DNA from: an uncultured Lentisphaerota bacterium | GTDB lineage: Bacteria; Verrucomicrobiota; Lentisphaeria; Victivallales; UBA1829 | Direction: 5' to 3' | Assembly (NCBI GenBank): GCA_900320095.1 | Contig: ONQZ01000012.1 | Coordinates: 1 to 49,449, forward strand | Length of the DNA stretch: 49,449 nucleotides | In this document: positions 4,888 to 46,041 of the stretch, in pieces | How the letters are laid out: each line of letters starts with the position of its first letter | Position numbering within the stretch: the stretch's first letter is position 1 | Notes under the pieces: generated by a model | The model's input: the letters and a program-made list of their open reading frames with translations, nothing else | Told to the model about the DNA's origin: nothing | The model's database searches: none | Translations under genes and position numbers: made by a program

Positions 4888-7005
4888 ATGCTGGAAGAGA
4901 TTTCAGTCAAAATCAACATCGGACCGGGCCGCGACCTCACGCTGGCAGCCGGTAAGCTCGCTCACCTCGCCAACGGCTCCTGCACGGTCCGTCAGGGCGA
5001 CACCATCGTCTTCTCCGCCGCCTGCTCCGGCGAAGCGAAGAAAGGCCAGGACTTCTTCCCGTTGCAGGTCGACTACCGCGAGAAGTATTCCGCGGCCGGC
5101 AAGTTCCCCGGCGGCTACATCAAACGCGAAGGCCGTCCCAGCGACAAGGAGATCCTGATCTGCCGCATGGCGGACCGCCCGATCCGTCCGCTCTTCCCGG
5201 AAGGCTTCTTCGATGAAGTCCAGGTCTGCGGCCTGCTGCTCTCCGCCGACGGCGTGAACGAGGGCGACGTGCTCTCCATGCTCGGCGCGTCCACTGCGCT
5301 CGTGCTCTCCGACCTGCCGTTCCAGGGCCCGATCGGCGCCGTCCGCGTCGGCTGCATCGACGGCGAGTTCATCGCGAACCCGACGATCCAGGAAATGGAA
5401 AAGAGCACGCTCGAGCTCGTGTACGCCGGTCTGCCGGACAAGGTCATCATGATCGAGGGCGAGGCGAAGGAATGCTCCGAGGACACGCTCGAAAAGGCGA
5501 TGATCTTCGCCAACGAGATCGTGAAGAAGCAGTGCGAGGCCCAGCTCGAACTCGCCGCCAAGGTCGGCCGTCCGAAGAAGGAGCCCACGCTCCACCTCGT
5601 CCCGGAAGATTTCAACGCCGCCATGATCGCGCTCATCTCCGACAAGATCGAGGCCGCGTGCCTCGTCCCCGGCAAGGAAGACCGCGAAAAAGGCCTCTCC
5701 GAGCTGAAGGAACTCTGCGCGGAACAGCTCAAGGAACAGTACCTCGAAGCCTACGGCGAAGAGGATTTCAATTTCTACCTCGGCATGGCGTTTGACAAGT
5801 ACGTCCGCGCCACCATCCGCAAGGCGATCCTCGAGAAGGGCTACCGTCCCGACGGACGCGGCGTGACCCAGATCCGCCCGCTCTCCGCCGAAGTCGGCGT
5901 CCTCCCCGTCGTCCACGGCAGCGCGCTCTTCCAGCGCGGCGAGACCCAGGCGCTCGTGATCGCCACCCTCGGCGGCCCGAAGGACGCCCAGGAATCCGAC
6001 AGGATCTACGGCGGCACCAACGTCAAGAAATTCTATCTGCACTACAACTTCCCGAACTACAGCACGGGCGAAACCGGCCGCATCGCCGGCCCCGGCCGCC
6101 GCGAGATCGGACACGGCAACCTCGCCGAACGCTCCGTTGCGCAGGTCGTGCCGAAGGACTTCCCGTACACCGTCCGCTGCGTCTCCGAGATCATGGCGTC
6201 CAACGGCTCCACCTCCATGGCGTCCGTCTGCGGCGCCACGCTCGCCCTGATGGACGCCGGCGTGCCGATCAAATCCCCGGTTGTGGGCATCTCCTGCGGC
6301 CTCGTGACCGACGACACCGGCAAGGAACTCCTCCTCACCGACATCATCGGCGCGGAAGACCACTTCGGCGACATGGACTTCAAGGTCTGCGGCACCGAGG
6401 AAGGCATCACCGGATTCCAGCTCGACCTGAAGCTCCCCGGAATCCCGATCGCCACGCTCGCACGCGCCATGCAGCAGAACAAGGCCGCGCGCGCCGAGAT
6501 CCACAAGGTCGTCCGCGACTGCATCGCCGCGCCGCGTCCCGAGGTCAGCCCGCGCGCTCCGCAGATGGAAGTCATCCATATCAACCCGGACAAGATCGGC
6601 GCCCTCATCGGTACCGGCGGCAAGAATATCAAGGAGATCACCGAATCCACGCAGTCCCAGGTCGACATCGCGGACGACGGCTCCGTCAGCATCCTCGCCG
6701 GCAACAAGGAGATCCTCGAAGAGGTCAAGCGCAAGATCCAGTTCTACACCGCCGAGGCCGAGATAGGCAAGATATACCGCGGCGTCGTCAAGACCGTCAA
6801 AGACTTCGGCGCGTTCGTCGAGATCCTGCCCGGCCAGGACGGCCTGCTGCACATCTCCGAGATGGCGAACTACCGCGTCGCGAACGTCACCGACATCTGC
6901 AAGGAAGGCGACGTCGTGAGCGTGAAGGTCGTCGACATCGACCGTAGCGGCAAGATCCGCCTCAGCCGCAAGGCCGCCCTCGAAGAACTCGACGGCAAGA
7001 AGTGA
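4888..7005 (+). CDS. pnp: Polyribonucleotide nucleotidyltransferase (PNPase)
   Basis: A 705-residue trimeric phosphorolytic 3'-5' exoribonuclease of mRNA decay. Two RNase PH domains (about 1-230 and 310-540) flank the helical domain. The second core carries the catalytic region GDMDFKV and the motif FNFPNYSTGE-type sequence. A KH domain follows (GALIGTGGKNIKEIT, canonical GxxG), then a C-terminal S1 domain (IGKIYRGVVKTVKDFGAFVEIL...GLLHISEM). The ATG at 4888 was chosen because AAGGAGGT lies 5 bases upstream and family homology begins at MLEEISVKINIG. The Shine-Dalgarno can be sequestered in a 5-bp hairpin, suggesting translational control. A strong terminator follows at 7098. Confidence 0.97.
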   Translation: MLEEISVKINIGPGRDLTLAAGKLAHLANGSCTVRQGDTIVFSAACSGEAKKGQDFFPLQVDYREKYSAAGKFPGGYIKREGRPSDKEILICRMADRPIRPLFPEGFFDEVQVCGLLLSADGVNEGDVLSMLGASTALVLSDLPFQGPIGAVRVGCIDGEFIANPTIQEMEKSTLELVYAGLPDKVIMIEGEAKECSEDTLEKAMIFANEIVKKQCEAQLELAAKVGRPKKEPTLHLVPEDFNAAMIALISDKIEAACLVPGKEDREKGLSELKELCAEQLKEQYLEAYGEEDFNFYLGMAFDKYVRATIRKAILEKGYRPDGRGVTQIRPLSAEVGVLPVVHGSALFQRGETQALVIATLGGPKDAQESDRIYGGTNVKKFYLHYNFPNYSTGETGRIAGPGRREIGHGNLAERSVAQVVPKDFPYTVRCVSEIMASNGSTSMASVCGATLALMDAGVPIKSPVVGISCGLVTDDTGKELLLTDIIGAEDHFGDMDFKVCGTEEGITGFQLDLKLPGIPIATLARAMQQNKAARAEIHKVVRDCIAAPRPEVSPRAPQMEVIHINPDKIGALIGTGGKNIKEITESTQSQVDIADDGSVSILAGNKEILEEVKRKIQFYTAEAEIGKIYRGVVKTVKDFGAFVEILPGQDGLLHISEMANYRVANVTDICKEGDVVSVKVVDIDRSGKIRLSRKAALEELDGKK

Positions 7006-15831: not shown

Positions 15832-15972
15832 AATCCATAACCGGAAAAAACTTTCCGCAAATCAGGAAAAAAACGTCCCGCGGATCAGGAAAAACGCGCA
15901 CCAATCCGGTCTGAAGAGATCGAATGGTGGGGGAAAAAACGGAAAGCCAACGTTAGGTTTTTTCTTCTTTTG

Positions 15973-16212
15973 CATTTGCGCGTCTCGCGGTTAAGTATAA
16001 AGTTGCCGAGCGCAAGCGAGCCTACCACAATCCTAAAAAACTCTGCCGTTCGCGTCTCTGCGGTAACAATATGCTGTCGAGCGAAGGAAGGCCACTGCAA
16101 TCCGTAAAACTCTGCTGTGCGCGCCTCGCGGTCAAATAAAAAGATGCCGAACGAGAGCGAGGCTACCACGGCGGCGAAGCCGCCCCCAGCAACGCGGGGA
16201 CGCATTGCGTCC
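15973..16212 (+). repeat. Family B repeat cluster, left side of island 1
   Basis: Three tandem units of about 70 bp begin near 15978, 16051 and 16119. Each unit reads GCGCGTCTCGCGG (or a variant), an A/T-rich spacer, then a CGAGCGCAAGCGAG-like core and a CTACCAC-like tail. The last unit is followed by hairpin GGCGGC-gaa-GCCGCC (16170-16184), CCCC...GGGG, and hairpin GGACGC-att-GCGTCC (16198-16212). The hairpin end points toward the island genes. Confidence 0.85.
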
Positions 16213-16362
16213 TTATTCTCTCTGAAAGAGCGGAAAAAACTAAAAAAAGCAGAAAAACCGTTTGATTTTTCTCCGTTCGCATGTAAATTGTGTTTTTGGA
16301 GTCGCTTTCCTGTTCTTCGGGAATCCGGTTCCAAGCTCATTCTATCGGTTATTTCAGCAAAA

Positions 16363-16501
16363 ACACATGTAAACCCGCCAAGTTTCAAACATTTTTGCCC
16401 AAGAATACGAAATACACCAGCAAGGACCATTGTGTCTTCAAGTCTTGCTGGGCGTATCTCTGTCGTTTCTTGGGCAGGTTCTTGGCGGGACCTACATGTG
16501 T
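16363..16501. repeat. 139-bp interrupted palindrome with four nested stems
   Basis: Perfectly matched arms, from outside in: ACACATGTA (16363) with TACATGTGT (16493); CCGCCAAG (16375) with CTTGGCGG (16481); TGCCCAAGAA (16396) with TTCTTGGGCA (16467); CCAGCAAG (16417) with CTTGCTGG (16444). Internal loops are unequal (3/4, 13/4 and 11/15 nt) and the apical loop is 19 nt. The three inner left arms share a CCnnCAAG-like word. It could be a structured RNA, the end of a mobile element, or clustered binding sites. Confidence 0.85.
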
Positions 16502-16628
16502 GACGTACGGGGATTCGTCCGGCTTTTTTGTACTCAACCGTCAAGAATTCTGAACTTGACGTTTGCAATCAAAACCGCCCGCATCCTCAAAAGTTGGAAA
16601 ACAACAACACAAATGAAGAGGTCAGGCT

Positions 16629-17990
16629 ATGGAATTCAAGATCGAGTGTCCCTGGTGCAATCAGCATTATTCCGTTGATGATTCGTTCATCGGGCAAAAT
16701 GTCGAGTGTTCCGTTTGTGGAAAACAGTTTATAGTCAATAAGCCAACTGTTTATGCTCAGGCAATAGAAAAAACAACAGAATACTCCACAAATCAGTCAC
16801 ACACCCCGGAGAAAAAAGTTTTTGCGTTCAAAAATAATACTCGAAAAGTTCTCATTGGCTGCGCTGTCCTTGTGGTCGTCGCGGTTTCTATCTGTGTCGT
16901 TTGCTATATGAGATACATCCCGGAAAAAGAATACAAAAACGGCATCAAAGCGTATAATGAACAACGCTACGAAGAAGCTGTCGTTTTTTTTCAAAAAGCA
17001 GCTGAACATGGACATGAAGAGGCAAAAAACAAATATAAAAAAACATTAGCAGAAATCAGCTGCAATAAAGGAAAAAAAGCATTTGTTGAGCATCGTTATG
17101 CAGAAGCAGTTGAATATCTTCAGAAAGCAGCGGATTTGGGGCATTCGGATGCACAGGTTTTACTCGGATTGTGCTATTATAATGGAGAGGGGATTATAAA
17201 AAACTCTGATGAAGCTGTTATATGGTTTCGCAAAGCCGCGGAACAAAACAATCTGCAAGCACAGTATCGGTTAGGATTGTGTTATTTGGTGGGGATAGGA
17301 GTTAATCCCAGAGAGGAAGAAGGGCTTTATTGGCTTCAAAAAGCAGCTGAACAAGGAAATCTTGAATCACGGGTTGCTTTAGGGGATTTTTATTACAATA
17401 AAGGCAAGACATTGGAGAATTACTCCGAGGCTCTAAAATGGTATCAAAAAGCAGAAGAAACTGGGATGATCTCGGATGAGACAAAGGAAAAAGCTCTGAT
17501 GTGTATAACATTCCAAAATGCATATAATGGAGATGACGCTTCACAGCTGGCAGTATTTGTTGCTTATGAGGGAGAATTGTTTGGTCTTAAAAAAGATGAA
17601 ACTGAGGCTAAAAAGTGGTTGGTCTTATCTGCGGATGCAGGGAATCCTAAAGCTCAAAGACATCTTGGTGATATGCTTATGCATAGCGGTGAAGAAAAAG
17701 AGGGGTTAAAATGGTTAGAGAAGGCTGGTGAACAGGAAGACCTTGATGCGATGGTACTCCTTGCGAATTATTACAAAAATAAAATTGATGAAGTATATAA
17801 AGACTCTACTTCTTCATCTTCTATTGGTAGAATTGTTGCTGCAGATTTGTATCGTGAAAAAGCAATAAAATGGGCGAATAAATATAATGCAGGGATTTCG
17901 CAAGTCATTCGGCAGGCAGTAGAGGCCGCCTTCTCGGAAGAGGAAACTGTCGACAAAGACGAACAAAATAGCATAAACACTGATGAGTAG
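16629..17990 (+). CDS. Zinc-ribbon, single-TM, Sel1-repeat protein
   Basis: A 453-residue protein. An N-terminal zinc ribbon of the MJ0042/zinc_ribbon type uses C7, C10, C27 and C30 (CPWC ... CSVC). A single membrane segment lies at about 74-94 (VLIGCAVLVVVAVSICVVCYM), after which come TPR/Sel1 repeats to about 420, then an acidic tail. With no signal peptide, the zinc ribbon is likely cytoplasmic and the repeats outside or in the periplasm. The gene is clearly AT-rich compared with its GC-rich neighbours, with A/T-ending codons, which suggests recent transfer. It lies in the repeat-bracketed island and is convergent with a Ser/Thr kinase, sharing a bidirectional terminator. Function is unknown. 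Confidence 0.85.
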   Translation: MEFKIECPWCNQHYSVDDSFIGQNVECSVCGKQFIVNKPTVYAQAIEKTTEYSTNQSHTPEKKVFAFKNNTRKVLIGCAVLVVVAVSICVVCYMRYIPEKEYKNGIKAYNEQRYEEAVVFFQKAAEHGHEEAKNKYKKTLAEISCNKGKKAFVEHRYAEAVEYLQKAADLGHSDAQVLLGLCYYNGEGIIKNSDEAVIWFRKAAEQNNLQAQYRLGLCYLVGIGVNPREEEGLYWLQKAAEQGNLESRVALGDFYYNKGKTLENYSEALKWYQKAEETGMISDETKEKALMCITFQNAYNGDDASQLAVFVAYEGELFGLKKDETEAKKWLVLSADAGNPKAQRHLGDMLMHSGEEKEGLKWLEKAGEQEDLDAMVLLANYYKNKIDEVYKDSTSSSSIGRIVAADLYREKAIKWANKYNAGISQVIRQAVEAAFSEEETVDKDEQNSINTDE

Positions 17991-18052
17991 GAGAAAGAAC
18001 ACAATGTTTCCATGGGGTTGATCAATTTGGATTATTCTTCAAAAAGATGAAA

Positions 18053-18091
18053 GCCTGCTCCACACAAAACTGAAGCAGGCCTTCTTTTTTT
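18053..18091. terminator. Bidirectional terminator between the Sel1 and kinase genes
   Basis: GCCTGCT (18053) pairs with AGCAGGC (18074), with CTTCTTTTTTT on the plus strand. On the minus strand the same stem is followed by TTTCATCTTTTT. It serves both convergent genes. Confidence 0.8.
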
Positions 18092-18107
18092 GAGAAAAGA
18101 TTGTTAC

Positions 18108-19025
18108 TTATTGTCTAGTTACATCTTCGTATATTTGCAGGAAATGATCTAAAATATCATTGGGGTGGGGACGTTTTGAGTAATCTAAAGAAAGCATTGC
18201 TCTTATTGAGTTAAAAACAAGGCCTCCATGTTTGCCTGCATCCTTAATAAAACCGATCTTGTTTAATGTTACTTGAGATTTTATATCACCGGGAACAAGA
18301 GGATTTTCACCAGTAAACATTTCTGCAAGTACTAAGCCTAGCTGAAAAACATCTGATTCAATATGCAAGGTATCTTTTCTATTTGCAAAGTTAACCAGCT
18401 CCGGCGTTCTATAGAAATGGGGCATTGCAACATACCCGTCCTCTCCATGGGTTATGCTGTCATTAAGACATTTTATGTCATCTTCAATTTGAGATGGGTC
18501 ATCACTGGATAGCTCTTTCATTAAGCCAAAATCTCCCAAAATAGCGTTATGATTGTCTATAAAAATATTACTAGGTTTTATATCTCGGTGGATAATATTT
18601 CTATCCCGCAAAAAAATAAGAGCATTAAGAAGAGTGCATGAAAACAAGATTTTTTCCCTAAAATCAATACTATCTTCTCTTATGCATTTTTCCAATGTGT
18701 CCGGCATATAATTTGTAATGATAAAAGGGTATGTGGTGTTATTGCTTTCCAAATGATATTCACCCGAGTCATGATGTCTTACAATAGAAGGATGGGCAGT
18801 AGTTTTCAGAAAATTCGCTTCTCTGTTAAAACGCTCTATCCTCTTAGCTGATGAAAGGTTATATAGTATCTTTGCAACAAAGGATAACCCTCGACAAGCT
18901 CCGGACGTACAAACAACAAGATATGAGATTGCGTTTCCTCCAATACCGAGATTCCTATGAACCTGATAATAGTTCTCTGTTTCCGATTTGAGAGATTGAC
19001 CAATTCTGATAGCACTTCTAATCAT
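18108..19025 (-). CDS. Stand-alone Hanks-type Ser/Thr protein kinase
   Basis: A 305-residue kinase domain with no PASTA repeats and no membrane segment. Key residues are present: the glycine loop GIGGNAIS at 27-34, catalytic K52 in VAKIL, probable E69, the catalytic loop HRDIKPSN (D148, K150, N153), and DFG at 165-167. TPEL replaces the usual APE, and SDVFQLGLVLAEMFTGENP is the canonical helix F region. It should therefore be active. GGAGG precedes the ATG. The gene is AT-rich like its island partner. Substrates are unknown; the neighbouring zinc-ribbon/Sel1 protein is the obvious one to test. Stand-alone bacterial kinases occur in some defence loci, but nothing else here supports that. Confidence 0.92.
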   Translation of the reverse strand: MIRSAIRIGQSLKSETENYYQVHRNLGIGGNAISYLVVCTSGACRGLSFVAKILYNLSSAKRIERFNREANFLKTTAHPSIVRHHDSGEYHLESNNTTYPFIITNYMPDTLEKCIREDSIDFREKILFSCTLLNALIFLRDRNIIHRDIKPSNIFIDNHNAILGDFGLMKELSSDDPSQIEDDIKCLNDSITHGEDGYVAMPHFYRTPELVNFANRKDTLHIESDVFQLGLVLAEMFTGENPLVPGDIKSQVTLNKIGFIKDAGKHGGLVFNSIRAMLSLDYSKRPHPNDILDHFLQIYEDVTRQ

Positions 19026-19095
19026 TTCATTCCTCCATTGTTATCTAGTTCTTAATATATTGGCGATAAAAACAGCTTATGCTGTCTTTTGTTTA

Positions 19096-19123
19096 AATAT
19101 AGCATATGGAAAAAACGAGTCAA
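19096..19123 (-). promoter_or_regulatory. Promoter of the Ser/Thr kinase gene
   Basis: On the minus strand, TTGACT at 19123-19118, a 16-bp spacer ending in ATGC, and TATATT at 19101-19096. It is about 70 bases upstream of the ATG. Confidence 0.75.
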
Positions 19124-19263
19124 ATAAGAATCACAAATTTGTTTGATGTATTTGAACTTACATGCTTATATTTGTTCTATAGAATTGGTTCGAATTAAGT
19201 CAAAAAGATGGTCTATGAATAAATGTGTTTTTTTTAAAAATCTGTATTCAACTGGTTTTTAGA

Positions 19264-19405
19264 TGGACCGCTTCGCTGGGGGCTCGCATTCGCGAGCCTC
19301 GGTAAGCTCGCTTGCGCTCGACATGTTATTATTACCGCGGAGGCGCGAATGGCTGAGTTATTTTGATTGGGGAAGGAGCATATTTCCCTGACCGCGAGGC
19401 GCGAA
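19264..19405 (-). repeat. Family B repeat cluster, right side of island 1 (inverted)
   Basis: Read on the minus strand this matches the left cluster. Near the island is a truncated GGAC, then CGCTTCGCTGGGGG, hairpin GGCTCGC-attc-GCGAGCC (19281-19298), CTCGGTAAGCTCGCTTGCGCTCG, an A/T-rich spacer, and ACCGCGGAGGCGCGAA. A second ACCGCGAGGCGCGAA unit follows at about 19391. The outer hairpin GGACGC/GCGTCC is missing here. The hairpin end again points into the island. Confidence 0.8.
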
Positions 19406-19439
19406 CGGCGGAAGATTTTAAATAGCGGAAGAACTATCC

Positions 19440-19466
19440 GTGCACTGGATCAGCACACGCTGTGTG
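19440..19466 (-). repeat. Family A element after the ABC-F gene
   Basis: On the minus strand, immediately after the TGA: hairpin CACAC-agc-GTGTG, linker CTGATCCA, then GTGCAC. It is a short version of the family A layout. Confidence 0.6.
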
Positions 19467-39839: not shown

Positions 39840-42383
39840 ATGAGACATTTGTTTCAGGTGGGCGGGATGCGCTGCGCGTCCTGCCAGGCGCACGTGGCGA
39901 AGGCCGTGAAGGCGGTCCCCGGCGTGCAGAATGTTGAGGTGAATCTGATCACCGGGCGCATGACCGTGGAGACGGACGACGCGCCGGACATGCCGCAGAA
40001 GATCGTCGACGCGGTGAAAAACGCCGGATTCACGGCGGAAATCGTGGAGGAAGCGCCCGCGCCTGTCGCCGTCGAACATTTGTTTCTGGTGGGCGGGATG
40101 CGCTGCGCGTCCTGCCAGGCGCACGTTGCGAAGGCCGTGAAGGCGGTCCCCGGCGTACAGGATGCCGAGGTCAATCTCGTGACCGGGCGCATGACCGTGA
40201 AGTGCGACAACGCGCCGGATATGCCGCAGAGGATCGTCGACGCGGTGAAAGATGCCGGATTCACGGCTGAACAGGTGAATGAAGCGCCCGCGCCCGAGGC
40301 GGCTCCCGAACAGGAAACGGCCGGGCAGGCGAAATCCGCCCCGAAGAAGGCACCGGCCGCCATTCCCGATCCCAGCCGCGAGCTCTTCCGCCAGTTCGTA
40401 TGGTCGGCGATCCTGATGCTTCCGCTCATGTACGTCGCGTTCTCCTCCATGCACGGCTGGCTGAAGGATTATCCGCTCGACGCCGCCTGGCTCCAGCTCG
40501 TTCTCGTGATTCCGCTGCTGTTCGTGAACCGCGTGTATTTCGTCAGCGGCGCGCGACGGTTCCTGAAGCTGTCGCCGAACATGGATTCGCTCATTATGCT
40601 CGGGTCCGGCGCGAGCGTGCTGTACAGCCTCGTGATGACCGGGGAAATGCTGCTCGGAAAGATGCAGGGGGACGCCGCGCGCGTGACCGAGGCGGCGGGC
40701 AACCTGTATTTCGAGACGGCGGGCATGATCCTGGTGCTCGTGACGTTCGGGAAATACTTGGAGGCGCGGGCGAAACGCCGCACGACGGACGCCGTGTCCC
40801 GCCTGATGAACCTGTCGCCGAAGACCGCGGTCGTCGTCCGCGGCGAAAAAGAAGTCGAGATCCCGGCGGACGAACTCGCCGTCGGCGACATTGTGGTGAT
40901 CCGGCCCGGTTCGTCGATTCCGGCGGACGGCGTGGTCGTGAGCGGAAACGGCACCGTGGACCAGTCGAGCGTGACCGGGGAGAGCGTCCCCGCGGGCAAG
41001 GAGCCGGGCGACCGCGTGGTGAGCGGGACGATGAACGTGAACGGTTCGTTCCGGTTCCGGGCGGACCGTGTCGGGCGCGACTCCACGCTGTCGCGCATCA
41101 TCCAGCTCGTGGAGAGCGCGTCGAACTCCAGCGCGCCGATCTCGCGTTTCGCGGACCGCGTGAGCGGCGTTTTCGTGCCGGCCGTGCTGGTCGCGGCGCT
41201 CGCGGCGGGCTGCTTCTGGCTGTTCGTGGAGCACCAGACCGTGTATTTCTCGCTGACGACCGCGATCGCCGTGATGGTCATCAGCTGTCCGTGCGCGCTC
41301 GGACTCGCCACCCCGATCGCGATCATGGTCGGCACGGGCGTCGGCTCCAAGTACGGCATCCTGTTCAAGAACGCCGCCGCGCTGGAGGAGTTGCACGCCG
41401 TCAGGACCATCGTGCTGGACAAGACCGGGACCGTGACCGAGGGGCGGCACCGCGTGACCCGCGTGGTGACGCTGACGCCGGACGGTGCGGAAGCCGGGGC
41501 AGGGGAGGCGGAGTTTCTGAAGATTGCCGCGCCGCTCGAATCGAAGTCGGAGCATCCCTTCGCGCGCGCTGTCGTACAGTACGCGCAGGAACACGGCGTG
41601 ATTGTGTCGGATGCGAGCGTGGAGGATTTCTCCGCGACGCCCGGGATGGGCGTGTCCGGCACGGTCGGCGGCGTCCGCTACGTCTGCGGCAACGCGCGCC
41701 TGATGGAACGCGAGGGGATCGCGCTGGGCGCGCAGGAACCCCTGATCCGCGAACTCGAATCCGGCGGCCACAGCCTGCTCTTCATGGCGGACCGCGACGC
41801 GAAACAACTCCGCGCCGTCATGGCGCTTCGCGACACCGTGAAGGACGGCAGCGCGGACGCCCTGCGCGCGCTCCATGAACTCGGCCTGAAGACCGTGCTG
41901 CTGACCGGAGACACCGAGGTCTCGGCGAAAGCCGCCGCGTCCGAGCTGCGGATCGACCGCGTGATCGCGGGCGTCCTGCCGGACGGCAAGGAGGCGTGCA
42001 TCCGCGAGCTTCAGCAGGACGGTGCGAAGGTGGCGATGGTCGGCGACGGCATCAACGACGCGGCCGCGCTCGCACGGGCGGACGTCGGGATCGCCATCGG
42101 CGGCGGCACGGACATCGCGATGGAGACCGCCGACGTGGTGCTCCTGCGCGGCGACCTGCGCGACGTGGTGACTGCCGTCCGCCTGAGCCGCGCCGTCATG
42201 CGCAACATCCGCCTGAACCTCTTCTGGGCGTTCTTCTACAACGTGCTGGGAATCCCGGTCGCGGCGGGCGCGCTGTATCCGTTCTTCGGGTGGCGCCTGC
42301 ATCCCATGCTCGGGACGGCGGCGATGGCGTGCAGTTCGCTCTTCGTGGTGACGAATGCCCTCCGCCTGCGGAAATTCCGCTGA
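39840..42383 (+). CDS. Copper-type P1B ATPase with two N-terminal HMA domains
   Basis: An 847-residue membrane pump. Two heavy-metal-associated domains start the protein, each with GGMRCASC (C12/C15 in the first). Next come the eight-helix membrane domain with the CPC motif (VISCPCALGLATP), the actuator SVTGESVP, phosphorylation site DKTGT, and hinge MVGDGINDAAAL. CPC plus these motifs indicates Cu+ (or Ag+) export from the cytoplasm. The HMA domains are almost identical at DNA level with a period of 231 bp, indicating a recent in-frame duplication. An 11-bp inverted repeat lies just after the stop. No CopZ or CueR gene is in the window. Confidence 0.94.
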   Translation: MRHLFQVGGMRCASCQAHVAKAVKAVPGVQNVEVNLITGRMTVETDDAPDMPQKIVDAVKNAGFTAEIVEEAPAPVAVEHLFLVGGMRCASCQAHVAKAVKAVPGVQDAEVNLVTGRMTVKCDNAPDMPQRIVDAVKDAGFTAEQVNEAPAPEAAPEQETAGQAKSAPKKAPAAIPDPSRELFRQFVWSAILMLPLMYVAFSSMHGWLKDYPLDAAWLQLVLVIPLLFVNRVYFVSGARRFLKLSPNMDSLIMLGSGASVLYSLVMTGEMLLGKMQGDAARVTEAAGNLYFETAGMILVLVTFGKYLEARAKRRTTDAVSRLMNLSPKTAVVVRGEKEVEIPADELAVGDIVVIRPGSSIPADGVVVSGNGTVDQSSVTGESVPAGKEPGDRVVSGTMNVNGSFRFRADRVGRDSTLSRIIQLVESASNSSAPISRFADRVSGVFVPAVLVAALAAGCFWLFVEHQTVYFSLTTAIAVMVISCPCALGLATPIAIMVGTGVGSKYGILFKNAAALEELHAVRTIVLDKTGTVTEGRHRVTRVVTLTPDGAEAGAGEAEFLKIAAPLESKSEHPFARAVVQYAQEHGVIVSDASVEDFSATPGMGVSGTVGGVRYVCGNARLMEREGIALGAQEPLIRELESGGHSLLFMADRDAKQLRAVMALRDTVKDGSADALRALHELGLKTVLLTGDTEVSAKAAASELRIDRVIAGVLPDGKEACIRELQQDGAKVAMVGDGINDAAALARADVGIAIGGGTDIAMETADVVLLRGDLRDVVTAVRLSRAVMRNIRLNLFWAFFYNVLGIPVAAGALYPFFGWRLHPMLGTAAMACSSLFVVTNALRLRKFR

Positions 42384-42440: not shown

Positions 42441-42474
42441 TCCATTCGATAGTTGGAGTTATCTCGATCCTGCC

Positions 42475-42703
42475 TTTCGCGCCTCGCGGTACCAACGGGC
42501 AACCTCCTCCGTTCTCTATAAACTCTGGCATTCGCGTCTCGCGGTTAAGAAAAGATGAGCGAGCGCAAGCGAGCTTTCCGCTTCCTGAGTATTTCCAAAG
42601 TACCTTTGTTTTCGCGCCTCGCGGTTAAGAAAAGATGAGCGAGCGGAAGCGAGTTTTCCAAGGCGCGAAGCGCCCCCAGTGAAGCGTGGACGCGTCTGCG
42701 TCC
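42475..42703 (+). repeat. Family B repeat cluster, left side of island 2
   Basis: Units begin near 42475, 42531 and 42611 with TTCGCGCCTCGCGG (or CGTCTCGCGG). Two of them continue TTAAGAAAAGATGAGCGAGCG-AAGCGAG almost identically. The last is followed by hairpin GGCGC-gaa-GCGCC (42662-42674) and hairpin GGACGC-gtct-GCGTCC (42688-42703), pointing toward the island gene. Confidence 0.88.
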
Positions 42704-42753
42704 TTTCTTTGTTCTTAATCTCATAAATAATCTGAAAAAGGCGGAAATCGTGC

Positions 42754-42782
42754 TTGACTATCCCAAGTTCATGTGATAGATT
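42754..42782 (+). promoter_or_regulatory. Promoter of the island 2 gene
   Basis: TTGACT at 42754-42759, a 17-bp spacer, and TAGATT at 42777-42782. Confidence 0.6.
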
Positions 42783-42873
42783 ATTGTTCGGATACAAAAA
42801 AATGAACGGGTTGTTCCCCGCTTAACGTCCTGCATGCCCCCAACCGGCAACACCTATGGAGGAAAACTATACC

Positions 42874-43764
42874 ATGCAACAAACAAGCTCCAGTGAACCG
42901 AAGAAAAACAGAAAACGGAAATGGTTCAGGTCGTGCCTAATCGTATTCCTCGGATATCTTGCCGTTTCCCTCGTCATCGTCTGCTTGTTCGGCGGAAGCT
43001 GCACGATCTGGACGATCGGTTATATCTGGCCCCGAAGAGTCAAACTCGAAGACCGTCATTTCGAGCTGTCTCCCGATGGCCGCGAAATCGTTTATTCTTC
43101 CGTGCTGGGAATCTACCGAGAAGATCCCTTGGGAGGCAATTACATACGTTCAGATGGAGCGCATTTCAAGAAACGGATCCCGATGGACCCCGTCCCGGAT
43201 GGAATGTTCCTCTTTACGCTGGAAGTCAAGGAAGATCCGTCCCAGGAGAAAGCCAAGTCAAAAAGTGTCCCGACTTCAAAGTGGAGCAGCCCGGTCCCGG
43301 TGGATTATCTTTTTCCTTTCCTGCTGGATTCCATCGGAAGCGACAACCCCGTTCCCGATTACTATCACAACGTCTGGCCCGATGGCACCTTTCGCTTGAT
43401 CATTCATCCCGACGACCGGGATAAACTGTCACAGCCGTTTTGCGTTACAGTCTGGGATAACGGCAAAGCGTATCGTCGAGAGAGGTCCATCCTGGTATTC
43501 CCGCGTGGAAAAAAGGGAAACCGTTATGAGGTCTTGACCGCCAGAATATCCAACGAGGAGGATTCCATTCCCTGGTCGTATCATCGTGTTTTTGAGCTGC
43601 AGCCGTTCGAAGAGAAATTCAATGCCATCGCAAAAAAAGAAACAAGAGAAGACGGCGTGAAAGGCGGATGGTACCTTGTTGGCGGCGCAGTCCTTATGGA
43701 TATCGCGATGCTGCCCGCCGAGGTGCTGTACTGGGCCGGACGGTGGATCGTGCTTCTGTTCTAA
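42874..43764 (+). CDS. Hypothetical membrane-anchored protein of island 2
   Basis: A 296-residue protein. A basic N-terminus (PKKNRKRKWFR) precedes a membrane segment (about 23-43), a Trp/Asp-rich extracytoplasmic domain of about 200 residues and a C-terminal hydrophobic segment GGAVLMDIAMLPAEVLYWAG. That last segment faintly recalls the DxxxLP pattern at the end of YceK-type small lipoproteins, but no family is assigned. The ATG at 42874 was chosen because GGAGG lies 11 bases before it; the ATG at 42856 is part of that Shine-Dalgarno region. It is the only gene between two inward-facing family B clusters, and it has its own promoter. Confidence 0.65.
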   Translation: MQQTSSSEPKKNRKRKWFRSCLIVFLGYLAVSLVIVCLFGGSCTIWTIGYIWPRRVKLEDRHFELSPDGREIVYSSVLGIYREDPLGGNYIRSDGAHFKKRIPMDPVPDGMFLFTLEVKEDPSQEKAKSKSVPTSKWSSPVPVDYLFPFLLDSIGSDNPVPDYYHNVWPDGTFRLIIHPDDRDKLSQPFCVTVWDNGKAYRRERSILVFPRGKKGNRYEVLTARISNEEDSIPWSYHRVFELQPFEEKFNAIAKKETREDGVKGGWYLVGGAVLMDIAMLPAEVLYWAGRWIVLLF

Positions 43765-44082
43765 AACATATCAGGGGAATGAGCGAAATCCGACTGCCTG
43801 CTAAACACAAATTAGCCCCGTTCCGGTATAGATTGATTAACACCTGCCCTTGCACATCCCATGGGCGGTTTTGGACGCATTCGCGTCCCCGCTTCGCTGG
43901 GGGCGGCTATGCCGCCTCGGTAAGCTCGCTTGCGCTCATACATCTTTTTCTTTACCGCGAGGCGTGAACGGCAAGGTTTTTGGGGGATGAGGAGACAGAA
44001 GACCGTTTGTTTGTACCGCGAGGCGCGAACGTCAGGGTTTGTGAAAGAACCAGTATGTCCGAAGCGAAAAAAACACGCGTGT
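43765..44082. other. Non-coding right flank of island 2
   Basis: This is 318 bases between convergent gene ends, mostly occupied by the inverted family B cluster. A plus-strand ORF that begins here and runs through dnaG is an antisense shadow. Confidence 0.6.
43873..44034 (-). repeat. Family B repeat cluster, right side of island 2 (inverted)
   Basis: From the island outward: hairpin GGACGC-attc-GCGTCC (43873-43888), CCGCTTCGCTGGGG, hairpin GGCGGC-tat-GCCGCC (43902-43916), TCGGTAAGCTCGCTTGCGCTC, an A/T-rich spacer, and ACCGCGAGGCGTGAACGGC. A second ACCGCGAGGCGCGAACG unit follows at about 44015. It is the most complete inverted copy. Confidence 0.88.
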
Positions 44083-46041
44083 TCAGATGATGACGCGGTA
44101 TTTCTGCGGGAGCTGGAGGAGGGCGGAGGAGATGTCTTTGATTTCCTTGAAGAGTTTGGCGCGTTCCGGGGCGTCCGGCGCGAGCGTCTTGACCTGCGCG
44201 AGCAATCCGGCGCGTTTCCGCGTGTAGTAATCGGTCAGGATCAGGCGCACGCTCGAATTGTAGGTGTTGCGGAAAAACTTTTTGCTGAGCTCGGGATCGG
44301 CGGCCGGGCAGGAGGCCGGGGGCGCGTCTTTTCCTTCTTCGCGGGTGGCCTCGATGGCGGCGCGTTCCGCGGCGTGTCCGGCGGCGAGGTCGAGCGCCTC
44401 GACGAGCTTCGAGACGTCCGCGCCCTCCATTTCGAGCGAGGTCAGGATGGACGACGGCGCGTCCTTCCATTCGCCGTTCATGGCGCTCTGGAGCAGTGCC
44501 TCGGCGGCTCTGCCGGGGACGGAATCGCCGAGCGAGTTTTCGGGCAGGTCGTCGACCGCCTTCTGCGTGTACTCCTCCGAATCCAGCATCAGGACGAGCA
44601 GTTCGTACACGGCGTTTTCGAGCGAGGTGTTGTGCGGCTTCGGGGGCGGGACCTCGCCCGCCTGCCGCCGCACCGTGTTCGCCGGATGGCGCGCGCCGTC
44701 GAAGAGGCGTCGTTCCGCGACTTTTTCGACGGAGGAGAGGGGGACGTTGAGCTTCTTCGCGAGCCAGTCGAAATAGAATTCGCGCGTGACCTCGTTTTCG
44801 AGCTGGATCATCCAGTAGATCACGTCGTTCGCGGCGGCGGCGCGCCCGGCGGGCGTGGAGGGGTCGACGTTCGACAGGGCGTGTTCAAACGCGAACTCGA
44901 AGAAGTCGACGGCGTCGCGGACGGCTCCGGCGAGGGCGTCGGCTCCGTACTTGGAAAGCGTCTCGTCGGCGTCCTTCGCGCCGGGGTAGCGCACGACCTT
45001 CACGTTGAACCCGAGCGGCAGGAGGATGGCGGCGTCCTTGAAGACCGCCTCGCGCCCGGCGTTGTCGTTGTCGGTGGCGAGGATGGCGGTCGAGGTGTGG
45101 CGTTTGAGGATGGTCGCCTGGTCGGCTGTGAACGCGGTGCCCTGCGGCGCGACGGCGTGCGTGACGCCCGCGCGGTGCATGGCGATGGCGTCGAGCTGGC
45201 CCTCGCAGAGGACCACGGCCCCGGCCTTCGGGATGGAGGTGCGCGCGAAGTTCAGCGCGTAGAGCAGTCGGCCCTTGTGGAAGATCGGGGAATCGGGCGT
45301 GTTCACGTATTTCCAGCCCTGCGAATCCGCCTCCACTGTGCGCGCGCTGAACCCGACGACGCGCCCGGATTCGTTCCAGATCGGGAACATCAGGCGGTTG
45401 CGGAACCGGTCGTAGATGTGAGAGGAGTTTTCGTCCCTGCTGGATGCGATGCCGGACGCGCGGAGCTCGTCGTCCATGAATCCCTCCTTGTGCGCGAACT
45501 GGATGGCGGCGTCCCAGCTGTCCGGCGAAGCGCCGATGCAGAACTTGTCCGCGACGTCGTTTGGGATGCCGCGCGTGCGGAAATACGCCGCGACGGGTCC
45601 GTCGGGGTGTTCGAGCAGATACTGCCGGTAGAATTTCGCGAGCTTTTCGTGCAGGGTGCAGAGGCGTTCGCGCGTGCCGTATTCGGGCTGGCCGTCGAGG
45701 TTTTCGCGCCTGGCGCCGCCGGGTCCGCGCCGGGGCGTCTCCGGGATGATGATGCCGTATTTGTGCGCGAGGTGTTCGGCGGCCGAGGAGAAGTCGAGGT
45801 TCTCCAGCTCCATGACGAACTTGAAGACGTCGCCGCCCTTGCCGCAGCCGAAACACTTGAAATACTGGCGGTCGGTGTTGACCGTGAACGACGGGGTCTT
45901 CTCGTGGTGGAACGGGCAGCACGCCTTCCAGGCGGTGGGGCCGCTCTTCTTGAGCGTGGGGACGTAAGACTGCACGACGTCCACGATGTCGGCGCGCAGC
46001 CGAATCTGGTCCAGTACGTCGTCCGGGATATAGCGGGCCAT
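44083..46041 (-). CDS. dnaG: DNA primase
   Basis: A 652-residue enzyme that makes RNA primers for replication. The N-terminal zinc domain uses C-x2-H and C-x2-C ligands (CPFHHEKTPSF, CFGCGKGGD). The RNA polymerase core with RFRNRLMFPIWNESGRVVGFSAR leads into the TOPRIM domain: LCEGQLDAIAMHRAG with the catalytic glutamate, and ATDNDNAG with DxD. The C-terminal domain, probably DnaB-binding, has a Pro-rich linker near residue 450. Length is normal. It begins 9 bases after the TPR lipoprotein stop, so the pair is probably co-transcribed. Confidence 0.97.
   Translation of the reverse strand: MARYIPDDVLDQIRLRADIVDVVQSYVPTLKKSGPTAWKACCPFHHEKTPSFTVNTDRQYFKCFGCGKGGDVFKFVMELENLDFSSAAEHLAHKYGIIIPETPRRGPGGARRENLDGQPEYGTRERLCTLHEKLAKFYRQYLLEHPDGPVAAYFRTRGIPNDVADKFCIGASPDSWDAAIQFAHKEGFMDDELRASGIASSRDENSSHIYDRFRNRLMFPIWNESGRVVGFSARTVEADSQGWKYVNTPDSPIFHKGRLLYALNFARTSIPKAGAVVLCEGQLDAIAMHRAGVTHAVAPQGTAFTADQATILKRHTSTAILATDNDNAGREAVFKDAAILLPLGFNVKVVRYPGAKDADETLSKYGADALAGAVRDAVDFFEFAFEHALSNVDPSTPAGRAAAANDVIYWMIQLENEVTREFYFDWLAKKLNVPLSSVEKVAERRLFDGARHPANTVRRQAGEVPPPKPHNTSLENAVYELLVLMLDSEEYTQKAVDDLPENSLGDSVPGRAAEALLQSAMNGEWKDAPSSILTSLEMEGADVSKLVEALDLAAGHAAERAAIEATREEGKDAPPASCPAADPELSKKFFRNTYNSSVRLILTDYYTRKRAGLLAQVKTLAPDAPERAKLFKEIKDISSALLQLPQKYRVII

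Follow-up and report, generated by a model that had tools for sequence, protein, structure and literature searches.

The region between copA and dnaG of an uncultured Lentisphaerota bacterium contains a single gene, framed by a forward and an inverted array of the same hairpin module of about 95 nt. It lies within a window of 49 449 nt, the whole stretch of DNA analyzed here, which is part of a contig of a 2.75 Mb draft genome (GCA_900320095.1, contig ONQZ01000012.1; genome 92.7% complete). A second bracketed island in the same window, located beside an ABC-F gene, is also confirmed. The features of both islands are collected in Table 1.

Table 1. Features of the two bracketed islands of the window and of the genes flanking the copA–dnaG island.
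Feature	Position	Strand	Description
First island, left bracket	15977–16212	+	
First island, RNA	16298–16530	+	Structured RNA gene with T-run end; z = −5.97; not found in Rfam
First island, gene	16629–17990	+	Sel1-repeat protein
First island, gene	18108–19025	−	Protein kinase
First island, right bracket	19268–19405	−	
Left flank gene	39840–42383	+	Heavy-metal P-type ATPase (copA-like)
Left bracket	42471–42703	+	Three boxes TTCGCGYCTCGCGGT (42476, 42531, 42611), two hairpin modules; ends in hairpin 42688–42703 with a T-rich tail (terminator-like)
Promoter-like sequence	42754–42782	+	TTGACT-17-TAGATT
Cargo gene	42874–43764	+	296 aa (302 aa from an upstream ATG)
Right bracket	43873–44036	−	Inverted module 43873–43968, with inner hairpin 43873–43888 and a box at 43954; further box at 44015–44029
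Right flank gene	44083–46041	−	DNA primase (dnaG); present in 13 of 13 genus genomes

The module comprises the box TTCGCGYCTCGCGGT, a variable hairpin, a second hairpin, often CCCCAGCGAAGCGGGG, and often a last hairpin GGACGC..GCGTCC. The arms of the two arrays pair across the gene at 77–90%. The initial annotation described the GGACGC/GCGTCC hairpins as outer elements; both are indeed present, but they form the inner edges of the brackets. No claim of one conserved fold is made for the brackets, since RNAalifold predicted only 4 pairs on their alignment and single-strand folds of six modules gave z-scores from −0.86 to −3.37. The promoter-like sequence is only a 9/12 match, with 1.2 such matches expected by chance, so its assignment is weak.

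The product of the cargo gene has a predicted helix at each end and a beta-rich middle, at low confidence (pLDDT 64.6). It has no Pfam family over its cut-off, and a fold search gave no match at E ≤ 0.001. The family is found in 12 of the 41 genomes searched and is confined to the genus among these, where distant relatives form a family of several copies per genome.

Inward-facing brackets across the genus

The initial annotation proposed that finding this geometry twice made chance less likely, and suggested a general insertion format for accessory genes. To test this we built a model, R1, from 32 modules; a strict text pattern had found only 7 and was replaced by a profile. R1 finds 34 modules in the own genome, and 9–51 per genome in 12 of 13 genus genomes, these counts being lower bounds. 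None was found in G007. (Numbers beginning with G denote genomes of the genus, G000 being the own genome; those with C denote contigs, and those with L loci. Three of the mates are RUG12414, RUG11954 and RUG10770.) Among the 150 best hits in the genus, a list whose cut-off means that partners are missed, neighboring arrays at most 5 kb apart are inward-facing (+−) in 26 of 32 close pairs, with 3 ++, 1 −− and 2 −+ (binomial p = 4e-11 against 25%, and 3e-6 for 26:2). In the own genome we count nine inward pairs and one outward pair within 5 kb. The format is therefore genus-wide, although the rule is not strict. The own genome also has single arrays without a partner in mid-contig (C63:25039 and C48:12651), and relatives of the cargo gene at G004:C6, G001:C38 and G001:C15 lie in loci without R1 brackets.

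In the loci compared there are 39 inward pairs under 7 kb, of which 33 enclose more than 500 bp and six enclose only 31–203 bp. One of these six, at L077:7672–8327 (C70 of the own genome), is an empty frame with 89 bp between its brackets; tracts like AAATAGTTTCAAAATAGTTTCAA repeat nearby and in L075. For the 25 islands of more than 500 bp in the own genome and in 20 regions that were chosen as inward pairs, and so say nothing new on orientation, GC content is lower inside than in the flanks in 25 of 25 (medians 0.43 and 0.61). The cargo includes Sel1-repeat proteins, a kinase, PDDEXK-like nucleases, an FtsK-like ATPase, an Lgt-like protein and AIDA-type adhesins, while many proteins have no family. 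Genes behind copies of the RNA elsewhere include glycosyltransferases, a radical SAM protein and an Hsp70-like protein. PADLOC analysis of 10 proteins lying behind the RNA gave WYL, a viperin model on a radical SAM/SPASM protein, a PDC-M61B match on an Hsp70-like protein and two weak PtuA matches, so defense is not the common theme shown. There was no match of the RNA in plasmids or phages, nor of the left bracket in phages.

Could the inward arrangement merely reflect the outer genes? Arrays belonging to gene 3′ ends or terminators would face inward wherever two genes converge, as copA and dnaG do, and REP repeats are known near 3′ ends (PMC3733652). However, the flanking genes of the first island are in tandem and yet its brackets still face inward, so bracket orientation follows the island and not the outer genes. 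Moreover, empty sites keep no array at all, and the history of the copA–dnaG unit differs from that of its flanks (see below). This explanation is already largely refuted, and we regard it as very unlikely.

Most other islands carry a further component that the initial annotation missed, a structured RNA gene of about 233 nt. It is present in 15 of 18 islands over 500 bp in the selected regions and in two of seven in the own genome, including the first island of the window, but it is absent from the copA–dnaG island. In all 23 RNA-bearing islands examined (three of them selected for the RNA) its core starts 139–165 bp from one bracket and points inward. That bracket ends in the GGACGC hairpin in 23 of 23, followed by at least five T in eight bases in 19 of 23, against 1 of 10 at the far side. 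RNAalifold gives 46 pairs, of which 20 show compensatory change; 97.1% of cells pair, and none of 500 shuffles reaches this or the covariation score. No Rfam match was found at E ≤ 1 in 15900–19450 of the window, there was none at gathering score in 11 island loci but a tRNA, and none in the copA–dnaG island. The RNA occurs in 29 of 36 family genomes and, with stricter filters, in 43 of 288 sampled genomes of the phylum, 41 of them in two families of one order. Outside the genus no R1 modules lie beside it in the 19 loci examined, and genes often follow on its strand. It is a candidate new RNA family.

Empty, filled and refilled sites

Comparison of related genomes supports an insertion or exchange format for accessory genes. 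In six of twelve mates (G012, G001, G006, G011, G003 and G008) the coding ends of copA and dnaG are about 6–25 bp apart with no bracket left. G005 and G002 hold the same gene with both brackets. G010 has the right bracket and other genes, its contig ending before copA, and G009 has 3.4 kb of other genes without a full bracket pair; in G004 and G007 copA was not found in the stretch taken. Clean loss of a unit would also leave an empty site, so that insertion and loss are not distinguished here. Comparing G000 with G005, copA differs at 140 of 1583 positions and dnaG at 55 of 618 (9%), but the unit 42471–44075 differs at only 31 of 1522 (2.0%). The change occurs at 42471, the outer edge of the left bracket, and between 44078 and 44091 on the right. 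So the bracketed unit has a more recent common history than its flanks. An 80-bp stretch (42530–42609), the period of the bracket modules, is missing in G005 and was left out of the comparison as a gap; such a loss is expected from recombination between neighboring modules.

The islands are not one-off insertions but slots whose cargo turns over. At the ABC-F site G000 carries Sel1 and kinase genes, while G001, G004 and G002 carry a pair encoding 441 and 227 aa, G005 a diverged version, and G012 other genes; in G012 and G002 only the ABC-F side is shared. G011 carries other genes at this site without a full bracket pair. The 441 and 227 aa pair (L097:6287–8298, L127 and L133) has no Pfam family over its cut-off, and is 94–99.5% identical in three species at one site. 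Both flanks are shared between C73 of the own genome, G005 (L102) and G012 (L114), as they are between G009 (L107), G003 (L100) and G005 (L194), and between G002 (L099) and G011 (L112). L102 and L114 have much the same cargo, while the others differ in whole or part. A site filled in G001 and G009 with different genes is empty in the own genome at C33. Conversely, the PDDEXK gene occurs at two different sites (L102 and L110).

Interestingly, the cargo alone can have a separate history. In G004 against G002 at the ABC-F site the cargo differs at 11 of 2131 positions (99.5% identity), yet the RNA before it differs at 64 of 213 (30%), the right bracket at 14 of 78 (18%) and the ABC-F gene by 9.3%. 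The switches are at CGTCCGGCTTTTTT, at the RNA 3′ end, and at the inner bracket hairpin. In L102 against L110, however, the RNA moved with the cargo, so the limits are not always the same. All these genomes are drafts from metagenomes (69–94% complete), and a chimeric join at shared repeats could mimic cargo exchange; the exactly shared stretch at the left limit is about 15 nt.

Cassette exchange and related systems

On balance we favor, with reasonable confidence, the view that the island is an exchangeable accessory-gene cassette. The two inward-facing arrays frame one gene and its promoter-like sequence, and the terminator-like hairpin of the promoter-side array would shield the cassette from transcription arriving from copA. 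We infer that cargo is swapped mainly by ordinary homologous recombination between the shared frame sequences of incoming and resident DNA, although the activity that first fills an empty site is unknown. No recombinase was recognized by Pfam in the cargo proteins scanned. A ComEC-type protein is found in 13 of 13 genomes, but this is weak support as it is also detected in E. coli, and G007 has ComEC while lacking brackets. Nor does plain homologous exchange account for the direct flank duplications of 104 and 155 bp found at one site only (L096:5116–6820 and L197:4491–7845), which repeat the 3′ end of an upstream gene and its terminator; the own genome (L075, near 6739–6763) has this site empty.

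A non-autonomous transposon, moved by a transposase encoded elsewhere that recognizes the structured inverted ends, is possible but less likely. The inverted ends, the empty sites, the occurrence of the same nuclease cargo with its RNA at two different sites, the limits close to the outer bracket edge at copA–dnaG and the six inward pairs with almost no cargo are consistent with this. Yet there is no general target duplication among the 39 inward pairs (one with too short a flank), and bracket length and module number vary. The Y1 transposase PF01797, the only transposase family searched for across the genome, is absent from the own genome and found in 4 of 13 genus genomes, three of these being partial matches.

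The limits of the G004/G002 exchange might alternatively suggest a site-specific platform, in which an undescribed activity cuts and joins cargo at fixed points, the RNA 3′ end and the inner bracket hairpin. The constancy of RNA position, RNA direction and the RNA-side hairpin in 23 of 23 islands is in keeping with this. But only one pair shows both limits sharply, L102/L110 moved with the RNA included, the copA–dnaG island has no RNA, and the conserved stretches at those limits would also guide homologous recombination; without a search for integrases, we consider such a platform improbable. The idea that brackets and RNA together form a dedicated exchange platform, giving chromosomes with many parallel, RNA-headed gene slots of which islands without the RNA would be derived forms, is not excluded but remains doubtful.

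In the sister islands a promoter-like sequence, the structured RNA and a T-run are followed by cargo on the same strand, an order shared with leader RNAs with terminators (attenuators). The RNA is probably a 5′ leader that controls read-through, and the copA–dnaG island is a variant without it. Unlike known leaders, it has no Rfam match in the stretches scanned.

These slots can be recognized by sequence alone and compared across species, giving a visible anatomy to accessory-gene turnover in poorly known bacteria. Within the terms and the open-licence library searched we found no description of this format, but elements of it are familiar. Integron gene cassettes appear similar in having promoter-headed slots for different accessory genes with structured repeats at the cargo limits; here there is one slot per site, with many sites and inverted brackets, no search having been made for the integron integrase or attC sites. 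REP, BIME and REPIN repeats are likewise short hairpin repeats in many copies, paired in inverted orientation and forming mosaic arrays, and the CGTC-tagged REPs are said to lack a dedicated transposase (PMC3733652). However, the brackets described here, of about 80–850 bp, enclose up to 6.5 kb of genes, and a RAYT-type gene is missing in 9 of 13 genus genomes, so that RAYT-driven REPINs are not supported. Minimal mobile elements of Neisseria likewise appear to be small accessory cassettes between conserved genes, with different cargo at one site, and to be exchanged by homologous recombination, which for the cassettes described here is only inferred. The cassettes described here have their own inverted hairpin brackets, which are lacking in empty sites, most carry a common RNA gene, and the homology lies partly in the frame and not only in the flanking genes.
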